A stretch of 49,759 nt of DNA from positions 1 to 49,759 of the forward strand of contig JACQBQ010000059.1 of the NCBI GenBank assembly GCA_016201905.1, read 5' to 3'. Below the pieces are notes generated by a model, which saw only the letters and a list, made by a program, of their open reading frames with translations, ran no database searches and was not told where the DNA came from. The first letter of the stretch is position 1. Every line of letters starts with the position of its first letter. The stretch is from Candidatus Melainabacteria bacterium (GTDB lineage Bacteria; Cyanobacteriota; Vampirovibrionia; 2-02-FULL-35-15). The translations under genes and the position numbers were made by a program. Below, in pieces: positions 23,713-49,759 of this stretch.

Positions 23713-23718
23713 TATCCT

Positions 23719-23808
23719 GCTGTTAGGTATGGCAAAGATTTTGTGAACCTGGTCAGATAGGAAACTAAGCAGCCATAAGTTAAATTTTTGGGTATACCTA
23801 ATGGCTCA
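23719..23808 (+). ncRNA. ffs: signal recognition particle RNA (small bacterial 4.5S type)
   Basis: The RNA part of SRP, which binds Ffh and targets nascent membrane proteins. The conserved apical domain is present: GAACCTGGTCAG, a GAAA tetraloop closed by UAG/CUA, then AGCAGCC (about 23744-23774). The outer stem is formed by TTAGGTAT (23723-23730) pairing with ATACCTAA (23794-23801). The length, about 90 nt, is that of the small bacterial form without an Alu domain. The tetraloop is GAAA rather than the usual GGAA. A TATAAT stands just upstream. The exact ends are estimated from pairing. Confidence 0.87.
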
Positions 23809-23965
23809 TTCAAAACTTTTGGGTTTGCCCCCTTTTTTCAACATGGAAAGCCCTACTTAATGTGTAACATTTCATATTTCTTGGGAAAATAATATTACTG
23901 TGAATATTTTTCTAGGCAGCTAACACTTAGTTGCAAGATTTTGAAATATTGGTTAAGCTAAACAC

Positions 23966-29831: not shown

Positions 29832-30266
29832 ATGAACTTAAGTAGTCTATCGTTATTACTTTTAAGATTAGCGATAAGTTATATTTGGCTTACAGCTGGT
29901 TTAAGTAAGCTTTTCAACCCACAGTTCATAAGCAATTTCCCAGTTACTTTAGATGGCTTTGTAAAAAATACCCCATTTGATTTTTATGAAGGATTTTTAA
30001 AACAATATATTTTGCCACATGCTTATATTTTTGCTCAGCTTACAATCTGGGGAGAAATCCTTACAGGGATTGCTTTTCTACTAGGATTTCCAATGGTTAT
30101 TGCAGCATTGGCTGGAATATTTATGAACCTTAATTACTACCTAGTAGCCACTTCTACACCTTCTCAGTTTGTAAACATTATAATGATCTTTTCTCAGTTT
30201 GCAGCATATGCATGTGGAGCTGGAAATTTTTGGGGCATTAATGCAAAGCTAAATAAGAAGCTGTAG
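29832..30266 (+). CDS. DoxX-family membrane protein
   Basis: A 144-residue integral membrane protein with four hydrophobic helices and the DoxX pattern: LLLRLAISYIWLTAGLSKLFNP at the start, WGEILTGIAFLLGFP in the middle, and a last helix around FAAYACGAGNFWG. DoxX proteins are tied to thiol/sulfur redox chemistry or act as quinone-linked membrane subunits, but the exact role here is unknown. It is the last gene of the smpB-rplU-rpmA run; the MITE-like palindrome begins 26 nt after its stop. Confidence 0.8.
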   Translation: MNLSSLSLLLLRLAISYIWLTAGLSKLFNPQFISNFPVTLDGFVKNTPFDFYEGFLKQYILPHAYIFAQLTIWGEILTGIAFLLGFPMVIAALAGIFMNLNYYLVATSTPSQFVNIIMIFSQFAAYACGAGNFWGINAKLNKKL

Positions 30267-30291
30267 AGTAAGTGAAAATTTAATGTGGCTT

Positions 30292-30493
30292 GTCATTGCT
30301 ATGAGAATGCAACATTTTTCTGACAAAATGGGCTTACATAAAAGCGAAACCCATACCCTTAAGCGGAACGTGTGCATTGTTCGCACAAGTGGAGCGAAGG
30401 GTATGGGTAAGCAAAAAAAAGTAAGCCCATTTGAAGTTTTGCTAGAAAAACAGGAGTTTCTCCTATAAGAGTTTTGAGATAGCTTCCAATGAC
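30292..30493. repeat. MITE-like palindromic element, full copy (202 bp)
   Basis: The element is bounded by GTCATTG (30292-30298) and its complement CAATGAC (30487-30493). Inside are nested inverted repeats: AAATGGGCTTAC (30326-30337) with its complement at 30421-30432, ACCCATACCCTT (30349-30360) with its complement at 30397-30408, and a TGTGC/GCACA hairpin at the centre (about 30371-30386). It would fold into one long cruciform or RNA hairpin. No transposase is encoded; a 61-codon open frame inside is an accident of the palindrome. A second, shortened copy is at 44181-44302. The ends resemble a GTCATTGC...GCAATGAC type of dispersed bacterial repeat that I know from other genomes. It lies between the DoxX gene and dnaE. 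Confidence 0.85.
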
Positions 30494-30530
30494 GTTACTT
30501 GTTCTTATTAACACACTCTACAAAAATTGA

Positions 30531-30545: not shown

Positions 30546-33500
30546 ATGGAAGCAGAATTAAAAAATATTCCTCAGCATGTCCCACTCCATCTTCATACTG
30601 AATACAGCTTACTTGATGGTGCAAGCAGAATTAAGGATCTTATAAAAAAAGCAAAATTAAATAATATTCCAGCACTTGCAATTACTGATCACGGTGTTAT
30701 GTACGGTGCCATAGAACTGTACAAGACAGCAAAAAGTGAAGGCATAAAACCAATTATTGGCTGTGAAACTTATATCGTAAATGGCGATCACAATGATAAA
30801 TCAGCAAGAAGTCCACTTTATCATTTAATACTCCTAGCTAAGAATGATGAAGGATATATAAATCTTTCAAAAATAGTTACTGAAAGCAATTTAAATGGAT
30901 TTTATTACAAGCCAAGGATTAACAAAGATTTCCTGAGAAAACACAGCAAAGGTTTAATTGCATTAACTGCATGCCTAGGTGGCGAAGTACCAAACACTCT
31001 TTTAAAAGGTAAATATGAGGAAGCGAGAAATATTGCTGAATCTTACAAAAATATATTTGGTGAAGATTTCTATCTGGAGATTCAAGACCATGGACTGTCA
31101 GAAGAAAAATTTGTAAATCCTTTTATAGCTAAACTTTCAAAGGAATTAAATCTAAAAATTGTTGCTACAAATGACAGTCATTTTACAAACAAAGAAGATG
31201 CGATTTCACAGGATGCCATGCTTTGCCTTCAAACAAACAAACTTGTTAAAGACTTTCCAAGAATGCACTTTACTGGCACAGAGTATTTAAAAAATGGGTT
31301 TGAGATGATGAGGCTATATTCAGATCATCTTGAAGAAGAAACAATCAAACAAGCAGTATTAATTTCACCTCTTGAAATTGCAGAAAAGGTAGAGGATTAT
31401 AGAATTTTATCTGATGCTTTTACAAGATTACCTGAATATCCTTTAGAAGAAGGATTTACAAAAGAAACATTTTTGTCAGAACTTGTCTGGAAAGGAGTTA
31501 AAAAAAGATATGGAGAAGTAACTCCAGAAGTCAGGGAAAGAACAGAACATGAATTAAAAATAATTTTCAATCTTGGTTTTGCAAATTATTTTTTAATAGT
31601 GTGGGATTTTATTAAATATGCCAAGGATCACAAAATTGCAGTCGGTCCTGGAAGAGGATCAGCAGCAGGCTCAATAGTCGCTTATGCACTGAACATTACC
31701 GATATAGATCCTCTAAGATATAATTTGCTTTTTGAGAGGTTTTTAAACCCTGAAAGAAAATCCCTGCCTGATATTGATACAGATTTTTGTATTGAAAGAA
31801 GAGACGAGGTCTTAGAATATGTAAAAAATAAATATGGCACAGACAGAGTAGCTCAAATAATAACTTTTAACAAACTAGCATCTAGAGCTGTTATTAAAGA
31901 TATGGCAAGAGTTTTGGATTATCCATATAGCGAGTCTGAAAAGATTGCAAAATTAATACCAGTCGTTCGCGGTAAACCAAGAGAACTTGCTTGGATGAAA
32001 GAAAATCATTCTGAATTTACCGGGCAATATAAAACAAATTCCGACTTTAGAGAAATTATAAATCTGGCAGAAAAACTTGAAGGGATAAATAAAACTTTTG
32101 GGGTTCATGCTGCCGGTGTCGTAATTTCTGATAAATCACTGGATGAAATTGTCCCTCTTTCAAAGAACAATGAAGGCACAATTATCACACAGTACAGTAT
32201 GGACGAACTTGCATATCTTGGTCTTTTAAAGATGGACTTCCTTGGGCTTAGAAATTTGACAATGATAAATAAATCTATAGATATTATTTTAAATACCAGA
32301 AATATAAATATTGATTTAAATTCAATTCCACTGAACGATGAAAAAGTGTTTAAGATGATTTCGGAAGGACAACTTGCTGGAATTTTTCAGCTTGAAACAT
32401 CTACAGGAATGAAACAGGTCGCAAAGGAGATGAAGCCTTCTACCATTGAAGATTTATCAGCTTTAATAGCACTTTTTAGACCAGGTCCACTGGATACAGG
32501 AATGATCAATGAATTTATTGATAGAAAAAACAAGAAAAAAGAAATTCGTTATTTATTACCTGAGCTTGAACCTATTTTAAAAGATACTTATGGATCAATC
32601 GTTTATCAGGAACAAATCATGCAGATTGCTCAAAAGCTTGCTGATTTTTCACTTGGAGAAGCAGATCTTTTAAGACAAGCAATGGGTAAGAAAAAACCAA
32701 AAGAAATGGCAAAATATCGCCTGAAATTTATTGACGGGTTTAAGAAAAATAATCATGACCCAAAACTTGCTGAAGAACTCTATGAAATGATGGTTAGTTT
32801 TGCAGAGTACTGCTTCAACAAATCACACAGTGCAGCATATGGAATGCTTACATATCAAACTGCATATTTAAAAGCAAATTATCCTATAGAATATATGACT
32901 GCATTGTTGTCCAGCGTCCTTGATGATCAAGACAAAATGAAATATTACATGGCTGAATGCAAAAAAATGGGTATACAAATAATGCCTCCAGACATTAACC
33001 TCTCTGGTGTCAATTTTACTGCAGACGTAGGAAATAATTCTATTAGCTTTGGACTTGCTGCCATTAAAAATGTTGGCGTACAAGCAGTCAATGAAATCAT
33101 TAAAGCACGATCTAAAAACAGGACTTTCAATTCACTTACAGAGTTCTGCAGCCTAGTTGATCTTAGAGTAGTAAATAAAAAGACTTTTGAATCACTTATT
33201 AAATCCGGAGCATTTGACTCACTAAAACAAAGCAGAAAACAAATGATTGAATCCCTGGAGGAAATCGTTAGCTTAGCTCAAAAGAAAAGAGAAATGATTT
33301 TAAGTGGACAATTAAACATCTTTGGCACACCTGCTGATTTTTTAGCTTCCACTTCCACTAATGGAAATTCTTCTACTGAGAAAAATGGAAAAATCCAAGA
33401 CGAGTACACCCCAAAAGAACTTCAGATGATGGAAAAAGAACTTACTGGTTTTTACATATCGAGTCATCCACTTGAAAATATTCCTGATGTTATTCCCAAG

Positions 33501-34103
33501 ATTACATCATGTAACCTTGCTGAAATCCATGAAATGCCCGATAATACTGAGGTTTTAATCATTGCAATTATAAGTGAAATAAATAAAAAACTTACAAAAA
33601 ACAATAAACTTATTGGCATAGTTCAGCTTGAAGATATATTAGGAAAGGTTGAAGCAGTAATATTTTCAGAACAACTAATACAATTTGGAGATTTCTTACT
33701 TCCAGAAGTCCCTTTATTAATACTGGGCAGAGTGCAACAAAAAAGTGAAGGAAACATCAGTTTGCAAATAAAATCATTACAACCATTAGAAGAAATAAAA
33801 CTATTGTCAATTGAAATACAAGAGGAAATTTCAGAAAACGACTTATACACAAGTATTCATTCATTGAGAAATATTCTTCAAAAAGAAAAGTCAAGCCCAT
33901 TCTACCCAATAGTCCTAAAAGCAAAGCATAAAAATAAAACAAGCTCTTATGTACTGGATAGAAAATTTTGGATTGAACCACAGGAAGGACTTCTTAAAAA
34001 TATTCAAAAAATGTCTCCTGCTATAAAAGCAGAGATCTTAAGACCATTTATTGAGATTCAGAAAAAAGAGATTGAAAAACTGGATACAAGCCCTGTGTCT
34101 TAG
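30546..34103 (+). CDS. dnaE: DNA polymerase III alpha subunit
   Basis: Replicative polymerase catalytic subunit, 1185 residues in one unbroken frame. The N-terminal PHP domain starts HLHTEYSLLDGASRI (about 15-29) with ITDHG next. The polymerase core has the catalytic Asp motif PDIDTDF (D409, D411), GPGRGSAAGSIVAYAL, FGVHAAGVVIS and FNKSHSAAYGMLTYQTAYLK. A helix-hairpin-helix region and a C-terminal OB fold (VLIIAIISEI onward) follow. No intein splits it, unlike the split dnaE inteins known in many cyanobacteria. It is of the DnaE1 size and layout. The C-terminal region is shorter and less conserved than in E. coli. Confidence 0.98.
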   Translation: MEAELKNIPQHVPLHLHTEYSLLDGASRIKDLIKKAKLNNIPALAITDHGVMYGAIELYKTAKSEGIKPIIGCETYIVNGDHNDKSARSPLYHLILLAKNDEGYINLSKIVTESNLNGFYYKPRINKDFLRKHSKGLIALTACLGGEVPNTLLKGKYEEARNIAESYKNIFGEDFYLEIQDHGLSEEKFVNPFIAKLSKELNLKIVATNDSHFTNKEDAISQDAMLCLQTNKLVKDFPRMHFTGTEYLKNGFEMMRLYSDHLEEETIKQAVLISPLEIAEKVEDYRILSDAFTRLPEYPLEEGFTKETFLSELVWKGVKKRYGEVTPEVRERTEHELKIIFNLGFANYFLIVWDFIKYAKDHKIAVGPGRGSAAGSIVAYALNITDIDPLRYNLLFERFLNPERKSLPDIDTDFCIERRDEVLEYVKNKYGTDRVAQIITFNKLASRAVIKDMARVLDYPYSESEKIAKLIPVVRGKPRELAWMKENHSEFTGQYKTNSDFREIINLAEKLEGINKTFGVHAAGVVISDKSLDEIVPLSKNNEGTIITQYSMDELAYLGLLKMDFLGLRNLTMINKSIDIILNTRNINIDLNSIPLNDEKVFKMISEGQLAGIFQLETSTGMKQVAKEMKPSTIEDLSALIALFRPGPLDTGMINEFIDRKNKKKEIRYLLPELEPILKDTYGSIVYQEQIMQIAQKLADFSLGEADLLRQAMGKKKPKEMAKYRLKFIDGFKKNNHDPKLAEELYEMMVSFAEYCFNKSHSAAYGMLTYQTAYLKANYPIEYMTALLSSVLDDQDKMKYYMAECKKMGIQIMPPDINLSGVNFTADVGNNSISFGLAAIKNVGVQAVNEIIKARSKNRTFNSLTEFCSLVDLRVVNKKTFESLIKSGAFDSLKQSRKQMIESLEEIVSLAQKKREMILSGQLNIFGTPADFLASTSTNGNSSTEKNGKIQDEYTPKELQMMEKELTGFYISSHPLENIPDVIPKITSCNLAEIHEMPDNTEVLIIAIISEINKKLTKNNKLIGIVQLEDILGKVEAVIFSEQLIQFGDFLLPEVPLLILGRVQQKSEGNISLQIKSLQPLEEIKLLSIEIQEEISENDLYTSIHSLRNILQKEKSSPFYPIVLKAKHKNKTSSYVLDRKFWIEPQEGLLKNIQKMSPAIKAEILRPFIEIQKKEIEKLDTSPVS

Positions 34104-43009: not shown

Positions 43010-44166
43010 AAAACAGCAAACCAAAATACTCGTTTTTCATTGTTTTAAATTTAATAGTAATTTTTTTATTTTCACTGAGTGCAATAAGCAAAGAAATTGA
43101 CATTGGGCTTATTACTGGCGATCAAGAAATTAGGTTTGGCTCAAACCAAAATGCAACTTTAATTAACCTGCACACAAATAAAGAGATTAGCAAAATAAAC
43201 AAACATGAGACTTATACAGTACACAATACCAATGGCTTTGTCAGCATTACACACAACCTTACCAAAGCTACTTTAGGCGCATTTACCGGACCAGTTCAAT
43301 TGATCCCAGAAAGCAAAAACGGTCTTGTGTTTTGTAATAAAAGCTGGTACAGAGGTACATTGATTTTGCTTACTAATAAAGATAAAAAAAACATTACCGT
43401 AGTAAACAAACTTGATCTTGAGGATTATCTGCTAAGTGTAGTACCATCTGAAATACCAAACAATTGGAATAGAGAAACCCTAAAAGCTCAGTCAATAGCT
43501 GCCAGATCATATGCTCTTGGTTATCTAGGAAGGAGAAGAAATAAAGGATATGATCTTGAGTCAAGTGTAGAAGACCAGGTGTACTTAGGCGTATCTTCGG
43601 AAAAAAGATCAACTTCCCAAGCTGTAAAGGAAACCAGTGGAATTATTTTAGTAGATGAGAACAATAAGCCTTTAATTGCTTTATATCATTCAAGCGGAGG
43701 TGGATATACTGACAGCATAGAAAATCTGTGGAATGAAAAACCATCAGCTCATATTAAGCCAAGACCTGACTACGACGATAACTCACCTCACTTCAAGTGG
43801 TTTAGGAGCTATGAACTTAAGGAAGCAAATATGCTTTTAAGTACTTTAAATATTGGAGATATAACAGATATTGTTCCTCTTTCAAGAAGTATTTCTCAAC
43901 GAGTTACATGGATTGAAATAAAAGGAGTAAATGGAAATGCAAAAATAAGAGGAGAAGAATTTAGAAAATTTTTAAAACTCCCCAGTTCAAAGTTTAATTT
44001 AAAAATTGAAAATAATTATCTTAAGTTTGCAGGCAGGGGATTTGGGCACGGACTTGGTCTTTCACAATGGGGTGCAAAAGCACTTGCTGAGGAAGGATTT
44101 ACTTACGAACAAATACTTGCTCATTATTATCCTGGCGCAAGACTAGTAAAGTGGACTAATAAGTAA
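43006..44166 (+). CDS. SpoIID/LytB-domain protein (septal/denuding peptidoglycan enzyme-like)
   Basis: Exported protein of 386 residues with an N-terminal hydrophobic signal/anchor (about 8-25). The SpoIID core spans about 125-385: LDLEDYLLSVVPSEIPNNW, LKAQSIAARSYALGYLG, DQVYLGVSSEKRST, ALYHSSGGGYTDS, and the C-terminal GRGFGHGLGLSQWGAKALAEEG and HYYPGA. In spore formers SpoIID is a lytic transglycosylase acting on denuded glycans; non-sporulating bacteria, including cyanobacteria, carry related LytB/amidase-enhancer proteins. This one most likely acts on septal peptidoglycan, in keeping with the division genes just downstream. A truncated MITE-like repeat follows 14 nt after the stop. Confidence 0.92.
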   Translation: MKNSKPKYSFFIVLNLIVIFLFSLSAISKEIDIGLITGDQEIRFGSNQNATLINLHTNKEISKINKHETYTVHNTNGFVSITHNLTKATLGAFTGPVQLIPESKNGLVFCNKSWYRGTLILLTNKDKKNITVVNKLDLEDYLLSVVPSEIPNNWNRETLKAQSIAARSYALGYLGRRRNKGYDLESSVEDQVYLGVSSEKRSTSQAVKETSGIILVDENNKPLIALYHSSGGGYTDSIENLWNEKPSAHIKPRPDYDDNSPHFKWFRSYELKEANMLLSTLNIGDITDIVPLSRSISQRVTWIEIKGVNGNAKIRGEEFRKFLKLPSSKFNLKIENNYLKFAGRGFGHGLGLSQWGAKALAEEGFTYEQILAHYYPGARLVKWTNK

Positions 44167-44180
44167 TATTTAGGGTAACT

Positions 44181-44302
44181 GTCATTGTTCGCACAAGTGG
44201 AGCGAAGGGTATGGGTAAGCAAAAAAAAGTAAGCCCATTTGAAGTTTTGCTAGAAAAATAAGTAAAACCTATAGTAGGACTTTTGAGATGAGTTCCAATG
44301 AC
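44181..44302. repeat. MITE-like element, copy lacking the left arm (122 bp)
   Basis: Second copy of the element at 30292-30493. Positions 44183-44258 are identical over 76 bp to 30375-30450, and the right end (TTTTGAGAT, then TTCCAATGAC at 44293-44302) is kept with small changes. The left end GTCATTG (44181-44187) joins directly to the middle of the element. The 81 bp between the two CATTG copies of the full element (30299-30379) are missing, so this copy can no longer form the long outer palindrome. It sits between the SpoIID gene and argF. Confidence 0.85.
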
Positions 44303-49386: not shown

Positions 49387-49759
49387 TTAGAACCCACCTA
49401 GTGTTAGTGCCTCACTCCTTAGTTCCACTACTAATCTTTTCCAAGCAGCTTGAAATTCTTCTTCTGTTGCATCAGGAGGTAGGCCAACAAGTTTTCTGTT
49501 TCTTGCAGCTAGCTTTTTTTCTTTGTCTGGACCTGCTGAGTTAACAAGATCTAGATCAAAGTATTTCTTATCGCCTTCACATACTACTCTATCAAAGAAG
49601 GTTTTAGCTTCTAGACTTATACGACTTGTGAAAAATTATATTCAAAAGCAGCTTAACCCATTTTGAGAATGTATGAGCTAGATGAGCAGCTCTCATTTCA
49701 AGTTTAGTGTAAATAGATTTGTAACACCTGACATAACGATTAGCCATATGTTCTTGTAT
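49387..49759 (-). pseudogene. frameshifted gene of unknown family, cut by window edge
   Basis: Two overlapping minus-strand frames appear to be one broken gene. The upstream frame enters from beyond the window (Q-E-H-M-A-N-R-Y-V-R-C-Y-K) and contains LEMRAAHLAHTFSKWVKLLL before a stop near 49604. The next frame has no start codon of its own, continues with LEAKTFFDRVVCEGDKKYFD, and ends in GLPPDATEEEFQAAWKRL and EALTLGGF at a stop at 49387-49389. The switch lies near 49610-49630. The P-P-D-A-T-E-E-E-F-x-A-A-W-x-R-L segment looks like the start of a J-domain helix pair but lacks HPD. It could be a decayed gene, a sequencing error or a programmed shift. Confidence 0.55.

Follow-up and report, generated by a model that had tools for sequence, protein, structure and literature searches.

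We found that the 202-bp palindrome between doxX and dnaE in a Melainabacteria genome, judged from its sequence, resolves into three repeat families nested in one another: a REP-like repeat, a MITE, and a hairpin termed R1. The palindrome occupies 30292-30493 of the window (the whole stretch of DNA analyzed, 49,759 nucleotides), which is contig C5 of a 2.28-Mb genome in 59 contigs. We consider it highly probable that this feature is a decayed nested insertion, in which the MITE sits in the REP-like repeat and R1 sits in the MITE. The window copy is probably an immobile, non-autonomous relic because its left MITE end is missing, and the insertion adds no gene.

The following history would account for this arrangement. 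A REP-like palindromic repeat, GTCATTGCGAG...CTCGCAATGAC, would originally have stood between doxX and dnaE, and a MITE of about 210 bp would then have entered the foot of this repeat at a TTG/CAA trinucleotide. The MITE was presumably moved in trans by a resident IS5-family transposase, as suggested by its matching ends and by the 3-bp duplications at sister copies. R1 (about 110 bp), which also exists alone, would most likely have been picked up by the MITE at its center and then multiplied, and later losses would have removed the remaining interior of the REP-like repeat together with 21 nt from the left end of the MITE. Against a simple account of this kind, the window copy itself has neither a target duplication nor a left terminal repeat. 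The case shows palindromic repeats building on each other in uncultured relatives of the cyanobacteria that have received little study.

The nested palindrome and its site

The palindrome is preceded by smpB, rplU, rpmA, and doxX (Table 1). Folded as RNA, the 216 nt at 30285-30500 form a nested hairpin of −74.6 kcal/mol (z −6.1), which none of 200 shuffles equaled; with DNA parameters, the same 216 nt gave a z of −5.7, again equaled by 0 of 200 shuffles. No ORF of 80 aa or longer was found inside 30292-30493. The second copy includes 76 nt (44183-44258) that are 100% identical to 30375-30450; it lacks the left half and is broken at a CATTG microhomology (GTCATTG versus TGCATTG), with a weak R1 model match at 44148-44242 (E 0.011). 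The preliminary description, made from the letters alone, had reported a palindrome with matching 7-bp ends, the absence of a protein, the gene run ahead of it, and a related second copy, and all of these, coordinates included, were confirmed. It had also proposed a dispersed, non-autonomous family, and this was borne out: 21 DNA matches were found in the genome itself, and matches occurred in 7 of 40 genomes including its own, one of the seven resting on a single 36-nt match that is perhaps due to chance. With these matches in its own genome and in relatives, the sequence is not confined to two copies.

Table 1. Window positions of the parts of the nested palindrome, its second copy, and the adjoining genes
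Feature	Position	Strand	Evidence or remark
Left foot of host REP-like repeat, GTCATTG	30292..30298	+	sequence
MITE left arm without its outermost ~21 nt (terminal inverted repeat present in L002 and L007)	30299..30324	+	
R1 hairpin (inner palindrome, MITE center)	30325..30434	+	covariance model R1, 103.6 bits, E 2.7e-24; the model's training set (18 copies) includes this copy
Apical cassette TGTGCATTGTTCGCACA	30371..30387	+	also tips an unrelated hairpin
MITE right arm	30435..30486	+	terminal inverted repeat GAGTTTTGAGATAGCTTC at 30469-30486; 76% over 58 nt to resident IS left end
Right foot of host REP-like repeat, CAATGAC	30487..30493	+	sequence
Second copy	44181..44302	+	foot GTCATTG 44181-44187; distal R1 and MITE right arm 44188-44295; foot CAATGAC 44296-44302
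DoxX-family gene, upstream, 25 bp from left foot	29832..30266	+	PF07681, E 1.5e-9
dnaE (DNA polymerase III alpha), downstream, 52 bp from right foot	30546..34103	+	PF07733, E 3e-99

Below, G000 denotes the genome of the window, G001, G002, G003, G007, G008, G009, and G010 denote genomes of relatives, and L numbers denote individual loci. In L002 and L007, a 21-nt end, GAGCTCATCT.., precedes CTATGAGAATG; in the window copy, GTCATTG is joined straight to CTATGAG. Elsewhere in the window, 23716-23811 corresponds to the bacterial small SRP RNA (Rfam RF00169). The two window ends (approximately 1-138 and 49620-49759) are repeats common to 3 and 12 other contig ends, respectively, and are probably IS copies.

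Across relatives, rpmA, doxX, and dnaE stand together in 10 of 10 loci, as does rplU, of which the truncated locus L324 has only a part. The distance from the doxX stop to the dnaE match is 9, 18, 21, 38, 45, 49, and 64 bp in seven relatives and longer in G001 (168 bp), G002 (485 bp), and G010 (132 bp); the window gap is 279 bp. R1 had no match in the ten loci up to E 1, and blastn with four MITE copies against the ten gaps gave only short, chance-level matches, the stronger ones being only to the central-type palindrome at L319 170-260, outside the gap. The G010 gap holds an unoccupied GTCATTGCGAG repeat without a MITE, which may be an independent insertion because G010 belongs to another genus. 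A TG[C/T]TA[A/G]AAT motif is found 6-7 nt before the dnaE start codon in 7 of the 10 relatives; the window has it too, on the downstream side of the insertion. This conserved motif, TGTTAGAAT, is likely a promoter, and its position suggests that the dnaE promoter was spared. With the motif downstream of it, the insertion looks tolerated rather than regulatory.

Repeat ends, target duplications, and the resident insertion sequence

The GTCATTGCGAG motif was present in 13 of the 14 genomes searched, with 110 matches in G000, 122 in G009, and 289 in G010, and the reversed control gave 0 in all three. Complete repeats are inverted pairs, GTCATTGCGAG...CTCGCAATGAC, for example in L022 and in the G010 doxX-dnaE gap; a CGTC or TGTC tag, a stem beginning with AT, and head-to-head dimers were seen by eye in L005, L022, and L323. 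No intact GTCATTGCGAG was found in the window, even when one mismatch was allowed. The feet of the window palindrome belong to the GTCATTGC..GCAATGAC class of dispersed repeats, to which the preliminary description had compared the ends. A second IS type, with CATATGTGTCAACTTAAG ends, was seen at 8 plus 3 contig ends of G000 (e.g., L246 at the end of C35 and L112 at the start of C6); its flank is GTCATTGCGAGCCCGCC in at least two cases, which places this IS, too, within GTCATTGCGAG repeats but at a different point.

Complete MITE copies start and end with GAGNN[C/T]ATCTCAAAA or near variants, and GTCATTG lies outside these ends. We examined at least 24 MITE places in G009 (a genome of 7 contigs), 20 of which had both ends recognized; 17 of the 20 MITEs are 206-209 or 198 bp long, and the others are 194, 232, and 276 bp. 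An exact 3-bp target duplication was found in 12 of these 20 copies (11 TTG/CAA and 1 GAA), and a GTCATT[G/C] foot adjoins the MITE in 18 of them (one mismatch at most). Both terminal inverted repeats, with up to two substitutions per end, were recognized in 20 copies of G009, 4 of G000, and 2 of G010, whereas the window copy has the right one only, so this single copy lacks the inverted pair. Two more G000 end pairs (L001 2694-2960 and L016) were excluded as chance or truncated. Exact 3-bp duplications also flank 2 of the 4 complete copies in G000 and 1 of the 2 in G010: TTG within a GTCATTGCGAG repeat in L005, GAA in L007, and TTG within a complete GTCATTGCGAGG..CCTCGCAATGAC repeat in L022. 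The family is short and non-coding, has inverted ends and target duplications, and has a resident IS with matching ends, and by these criteria it is a MITE family. Flanking target duplications had been named as a feature to look for; they are present as exact 3-bp duplications in sister copies, but the window copy has none.

The alternative that the palindrome is one REPIN-like or MITE-like unit, moved whole, with GTCATTG/CAATGAC as its true ends, would suit the copies that have feet on both sides and no 3-bp duplication, namely 4 of the 20 in G009 and both window copies (30292-30493 and 44181-44302). However, the complete copies have other ends, with duplications inside the feet: exact 3-bp duplications lie directly outside the GAG/GGG/GAA..ATCTC ends in the 12 G009 copies and in L005, L007, and L022, and the host repeat carries on beyond the duplication in most such copies. 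In addition, MITE-free GTCATTGCGAG repeats exist (G010 doxX-dnaE), and no duplication was seen by eye outside the feet. The duplication positions largely refute this alternative, which we regard as very unlikely. The 7-bp ends had been taken at first as termini of the element; they are feet of the host repeat, and the MITE ends lie inside them. More generally, palindrome ends read from one copy may be those of the target, not of the element.

The foot-flanked copies without a duplication include L100, L104, L196, and L199, for which simple insertion does not account. Double insertion followed by recombination was considered for copies of the form GTCATTG-MITE-CAATGAC but is a doubtful explanation: in 11 of the 12 copies with a duplication, it is one and the same end of the MITE that adjoins the foot, so two insertions would be inverted relative to each other and would not lead to a deletion. 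L205, in which ..CTC is directly followed by GCAATGAC, hints instead at deletion of the remaining hairpin.

The MITE ends match those of a resident IS. In G000, 6 contig ends carry a nearly identical IS left end (99-100%) and 2 carry the right end; over 45-55 nt, this left end agrees at 84-90% with four MITE ends. The element is known from these contig-end pieces, and a whole copy of the IS was not found. A 41-aa C-terminal fragment at the right end matched the IS5-family transposase model NF033580 (E 4.5e-7; 29.7 bits, which is below the full-length cutoff of 110, as expected for a fragment) and ISAzba7 (52.5% over 40 aa). This fragment had no match in Pfam, the 21-aa N-terminus had no significant match, and PF13340 had no match in either of two overlapping sets of 11 and 6 genomes. 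Patterns of the IS left end and of R1 each gave 0 matches in viral contigs. A RAYT/IS200-like or other transposase with matching ends had been proposed as a search target; a resident IS with such ends does exist, and its type is the IS5 family, as recognized from the end fragment. Members of some IS5 subgroups make 3-bp target duplications. Contig ends C37 and C55 read CCCTTT and TTTCAGGG, which is consistent with a TTT duplication if these contig ends are paired as we infer. GTCATTG adjoins 0 of the 6 IS left ends, so the IS and the MITE may differ in target choice.

The R1 hairpin family and its placement behind genes

R1 is a hairpin of about 110 bp with two conserved internal loops, and it forms the MITE center in G000 and G010. 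In two genome searches with stricter filters, by which weak copies could be lost, a covariance model built from 18 copies gave at least 55 matches in at least 8 of 146 genomes and, in a phylum sample, matched at least 3 of 292 genomes. All 8 R1-bearing genomes are among the 11 labeled as the family of the window, with none in the other 135 among the matches listed, and the phylum-sample genomes also all belong to this family (5 members of which are listed there). R1 has so far been seen only in this bacterial family. Across 53 of the 55 copies (52 distinct), 95.9% of cells pair, and in 24 of 26 pairs both partners vary (reached by 1 of 500 shuffles), with a covariation score of 0.616 versus 0.193 for shuffles and at most 0.130 for slid controls, in an alignment fitted to the model, which favors pairing. 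RNAalifold applied to the unfitted 18-copy alignment gave 13 pairs, double changes being present in 4; the outer stem was not predicted.

Rfam 15 gave no match at R1 when the window was searched at the gathering threshold. When the loci L001, L036, L090, and L095 were searched at E up to 5, two weak matches appeared, both below their gathering scores. One, in L001, was to a lncRNA and lay apart from R1; the other, in L090, was to a snoRNA (E 3.6) and extended over the edge of R1. One R1 copy searched against plasmids had no match. The R1 tip is modular: the cassette TGTGCATTGTTCGCACA has 5 exact matches in G000 (0 for the reversed control), and the copy at G000:C23:27950-27966 (L040) sits on a different stem, with no MITE by eye.

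Two side observations concern the tip. At L033 and L094, in the latter with a one-base change, the cassette tops hairpins whose stems differ and which end in AGGACTTACGCA. Repeats of AGGACTTACGCA occur in cyanobacteria; a link of R1 to these was rejected, as its occurrences in the phylum sample all fall in its own family, and the string AGGACTTACGCA was not found in the open-licence literature. An R1 subgroup (L301, L310, L312, L313, and L314) has GAAAAAGTC-like ends and a long second hairpin inserted at the tip.

The relation of R1 to the MITE was assessed by scoring the 80-nt flanks of 53 R1 copies and of L037 and L088 against the MITE arms, with shuffled flanks as the control. MITE arms were clear at 7 of 8 R1 copies in G000 and at 3 of 3 in G010, and arm remnants were found at L088 and L023 (G001) and at L274 and L282 (G008; L282 weak). 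The eighth G000 copy, L008, has no arms beyond its edge. The armed copies and remnants speak for a reading in which R1 is not independent, having arisen within the MITE, with its other copies being MITE remnants. We consider this unlikely: at 39 R1 copies in five genomes (G001, G002, G003, G007, and G009), arm similarity within 80 nt did not exceed that of shuffled flanks by a callable margin, and the outer arms of R1 are varied and covary. Furthermore, 20 of 20 G009 MITEs have another center, a GTCATTCC or GGAATGAC palindrome where complete G000 MITEs hold R1, and the R1 model had no match in them. Within G000, L011 has a different central palindrome and L036 has none. R1 appears to exist also on its own, and its capture by the MITE is the most likely relation between the two.

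The placement of R1 relative to genes was analyzed for 39 copies, leaving out G000, G010, and the remnants L023, L274, and L282, and with our own ORF calls of at least 70 aa, not annotated genes. An ORF entering on the reverse strand of R1 stops within −15 to +10 bp of the edge at 21 of the 39 copies, and on the opposite side this holds for 5 of the 39. By copy, such a stop is confined to that side in 16 and to the other side in 0, and 5 have it on both (sign test, 3e-5, computed on 42 copies, of which the three excluded later had no such stop on either side; the range was picked after the distances had been seen, so the p value is descriptive, and copies from the same genome are related). Beyond the inner hairpin, T accounts for a fraction of 0.57 on the stop-side strand versus 0.12 on the other (42 copies), and in the terminator-reading orientation R1 has TTCGCTTTT after the hairpin. 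This T-rich pattern is reminiscent of an intrinsic terminator whose T tract is interrupted. The placement pattern is absent from G000 and G010 (1 of 11 on each side).

These observations bear on a possible role at the window site, where the palindrome had been suggested to end transcription of the doxX run. A structured RNA or terminator of the smpB-rplU-rpmA-doxX transcript, kept there for its function, would fit the strength of the hairpin (z −6.1) and the R1 relatives elsewhere that are often found directly after stop codons, in a single orientation and with a T-rich tail on that strand. The window R1, however, points the opposite way relative to doxX, with the T-rich tail of its inner hairpin on the minus strand; a pattern scan found no plus-strand terminator between doxX and dnaE and only a small minus-strand one; and 10 of 10 relatives keep the gene order there without R1 or the MITE. 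Such a function at this site is very unlikely in our view, and the suggestion of a transcription end was not upheld; a decayed nested insertion remains our reading of the window copy.

The R1 family is the most promising lead from this analysis. As a tentative proposal, about which we are more doubtful than confident, R1 would be a lineage-restricted, undescribed class of structured palindromes that are inserted or retained at the 3' ends of genes in a strand-specific way and serve there as portable terminators or 3'-end elements. MITEs would take up palindromes of this kind as an interchangeable center and insert into REPs, so that hairpins recurrently enter hairpins. Should R1 prove to be a mobile 3'-end element, it would offer a testable example of mobile DNA spreading signals that end transcription.

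Comparison with known systems

In the genomes studied here, REP repeats are precise landing sites of a MITE, and the MITE ferries other palindromes to new places. No description of the present MITE or of R1 was found in the open-licence literature, among the matches listed, and, by title and start of abstract, the open-licence matches listed included none on Melainabacteria MITEs or palindromic repeats.

R1 is comparable to the REP, ERIC, and RPE extragenic palindromes, which are likewise dispersed hairpins near gene 3' ends; according to the available part of PMC3733652, REPs between codirectional genes lie close to the 3' end of the upstream ORF. R1 differs from these palindromes in its length of about 110 bp, its two conserved internal loops, its orientation to the upstream gene, and its lack of an Rfam family. 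The host repeat fits the description of head-to-head dimers of CGTC-tagged REPs in the same part of PMC3733652, compared by description and not by consensus figures. Shared features are a (C)GTC tag with AT directly after it, a pair of inverted units in each repeat, and many copies, intergenic where seen; the difference is the MITE that sits here at one fixed base in the foot.

The targeting of REPs by IS is known, and IS5 is among the five families given in the available part of PMC1525189. As with the REP-targeting elements named there (IS1397, ISPpu9, and the IS5-family ISNm1106 with Neisseria REPs), palindromic repeats serve as the landing site; unlike in those cases, as far as they are described in that part, the inserted element here is a non-coding MITE, it usually lies at one trinucleotide, and it holds a further palindrome. 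Finally, the family resembles the MITEs of bacterial insertion sequences in the available part of PMC10969869 in being short, non-coding, and multicopy, with the ends of a resident IS and target duplications. It departs from the MITEs described there in that its central palindrome varies between species, with both types of center belonging to repeat families that exist elsewhere.
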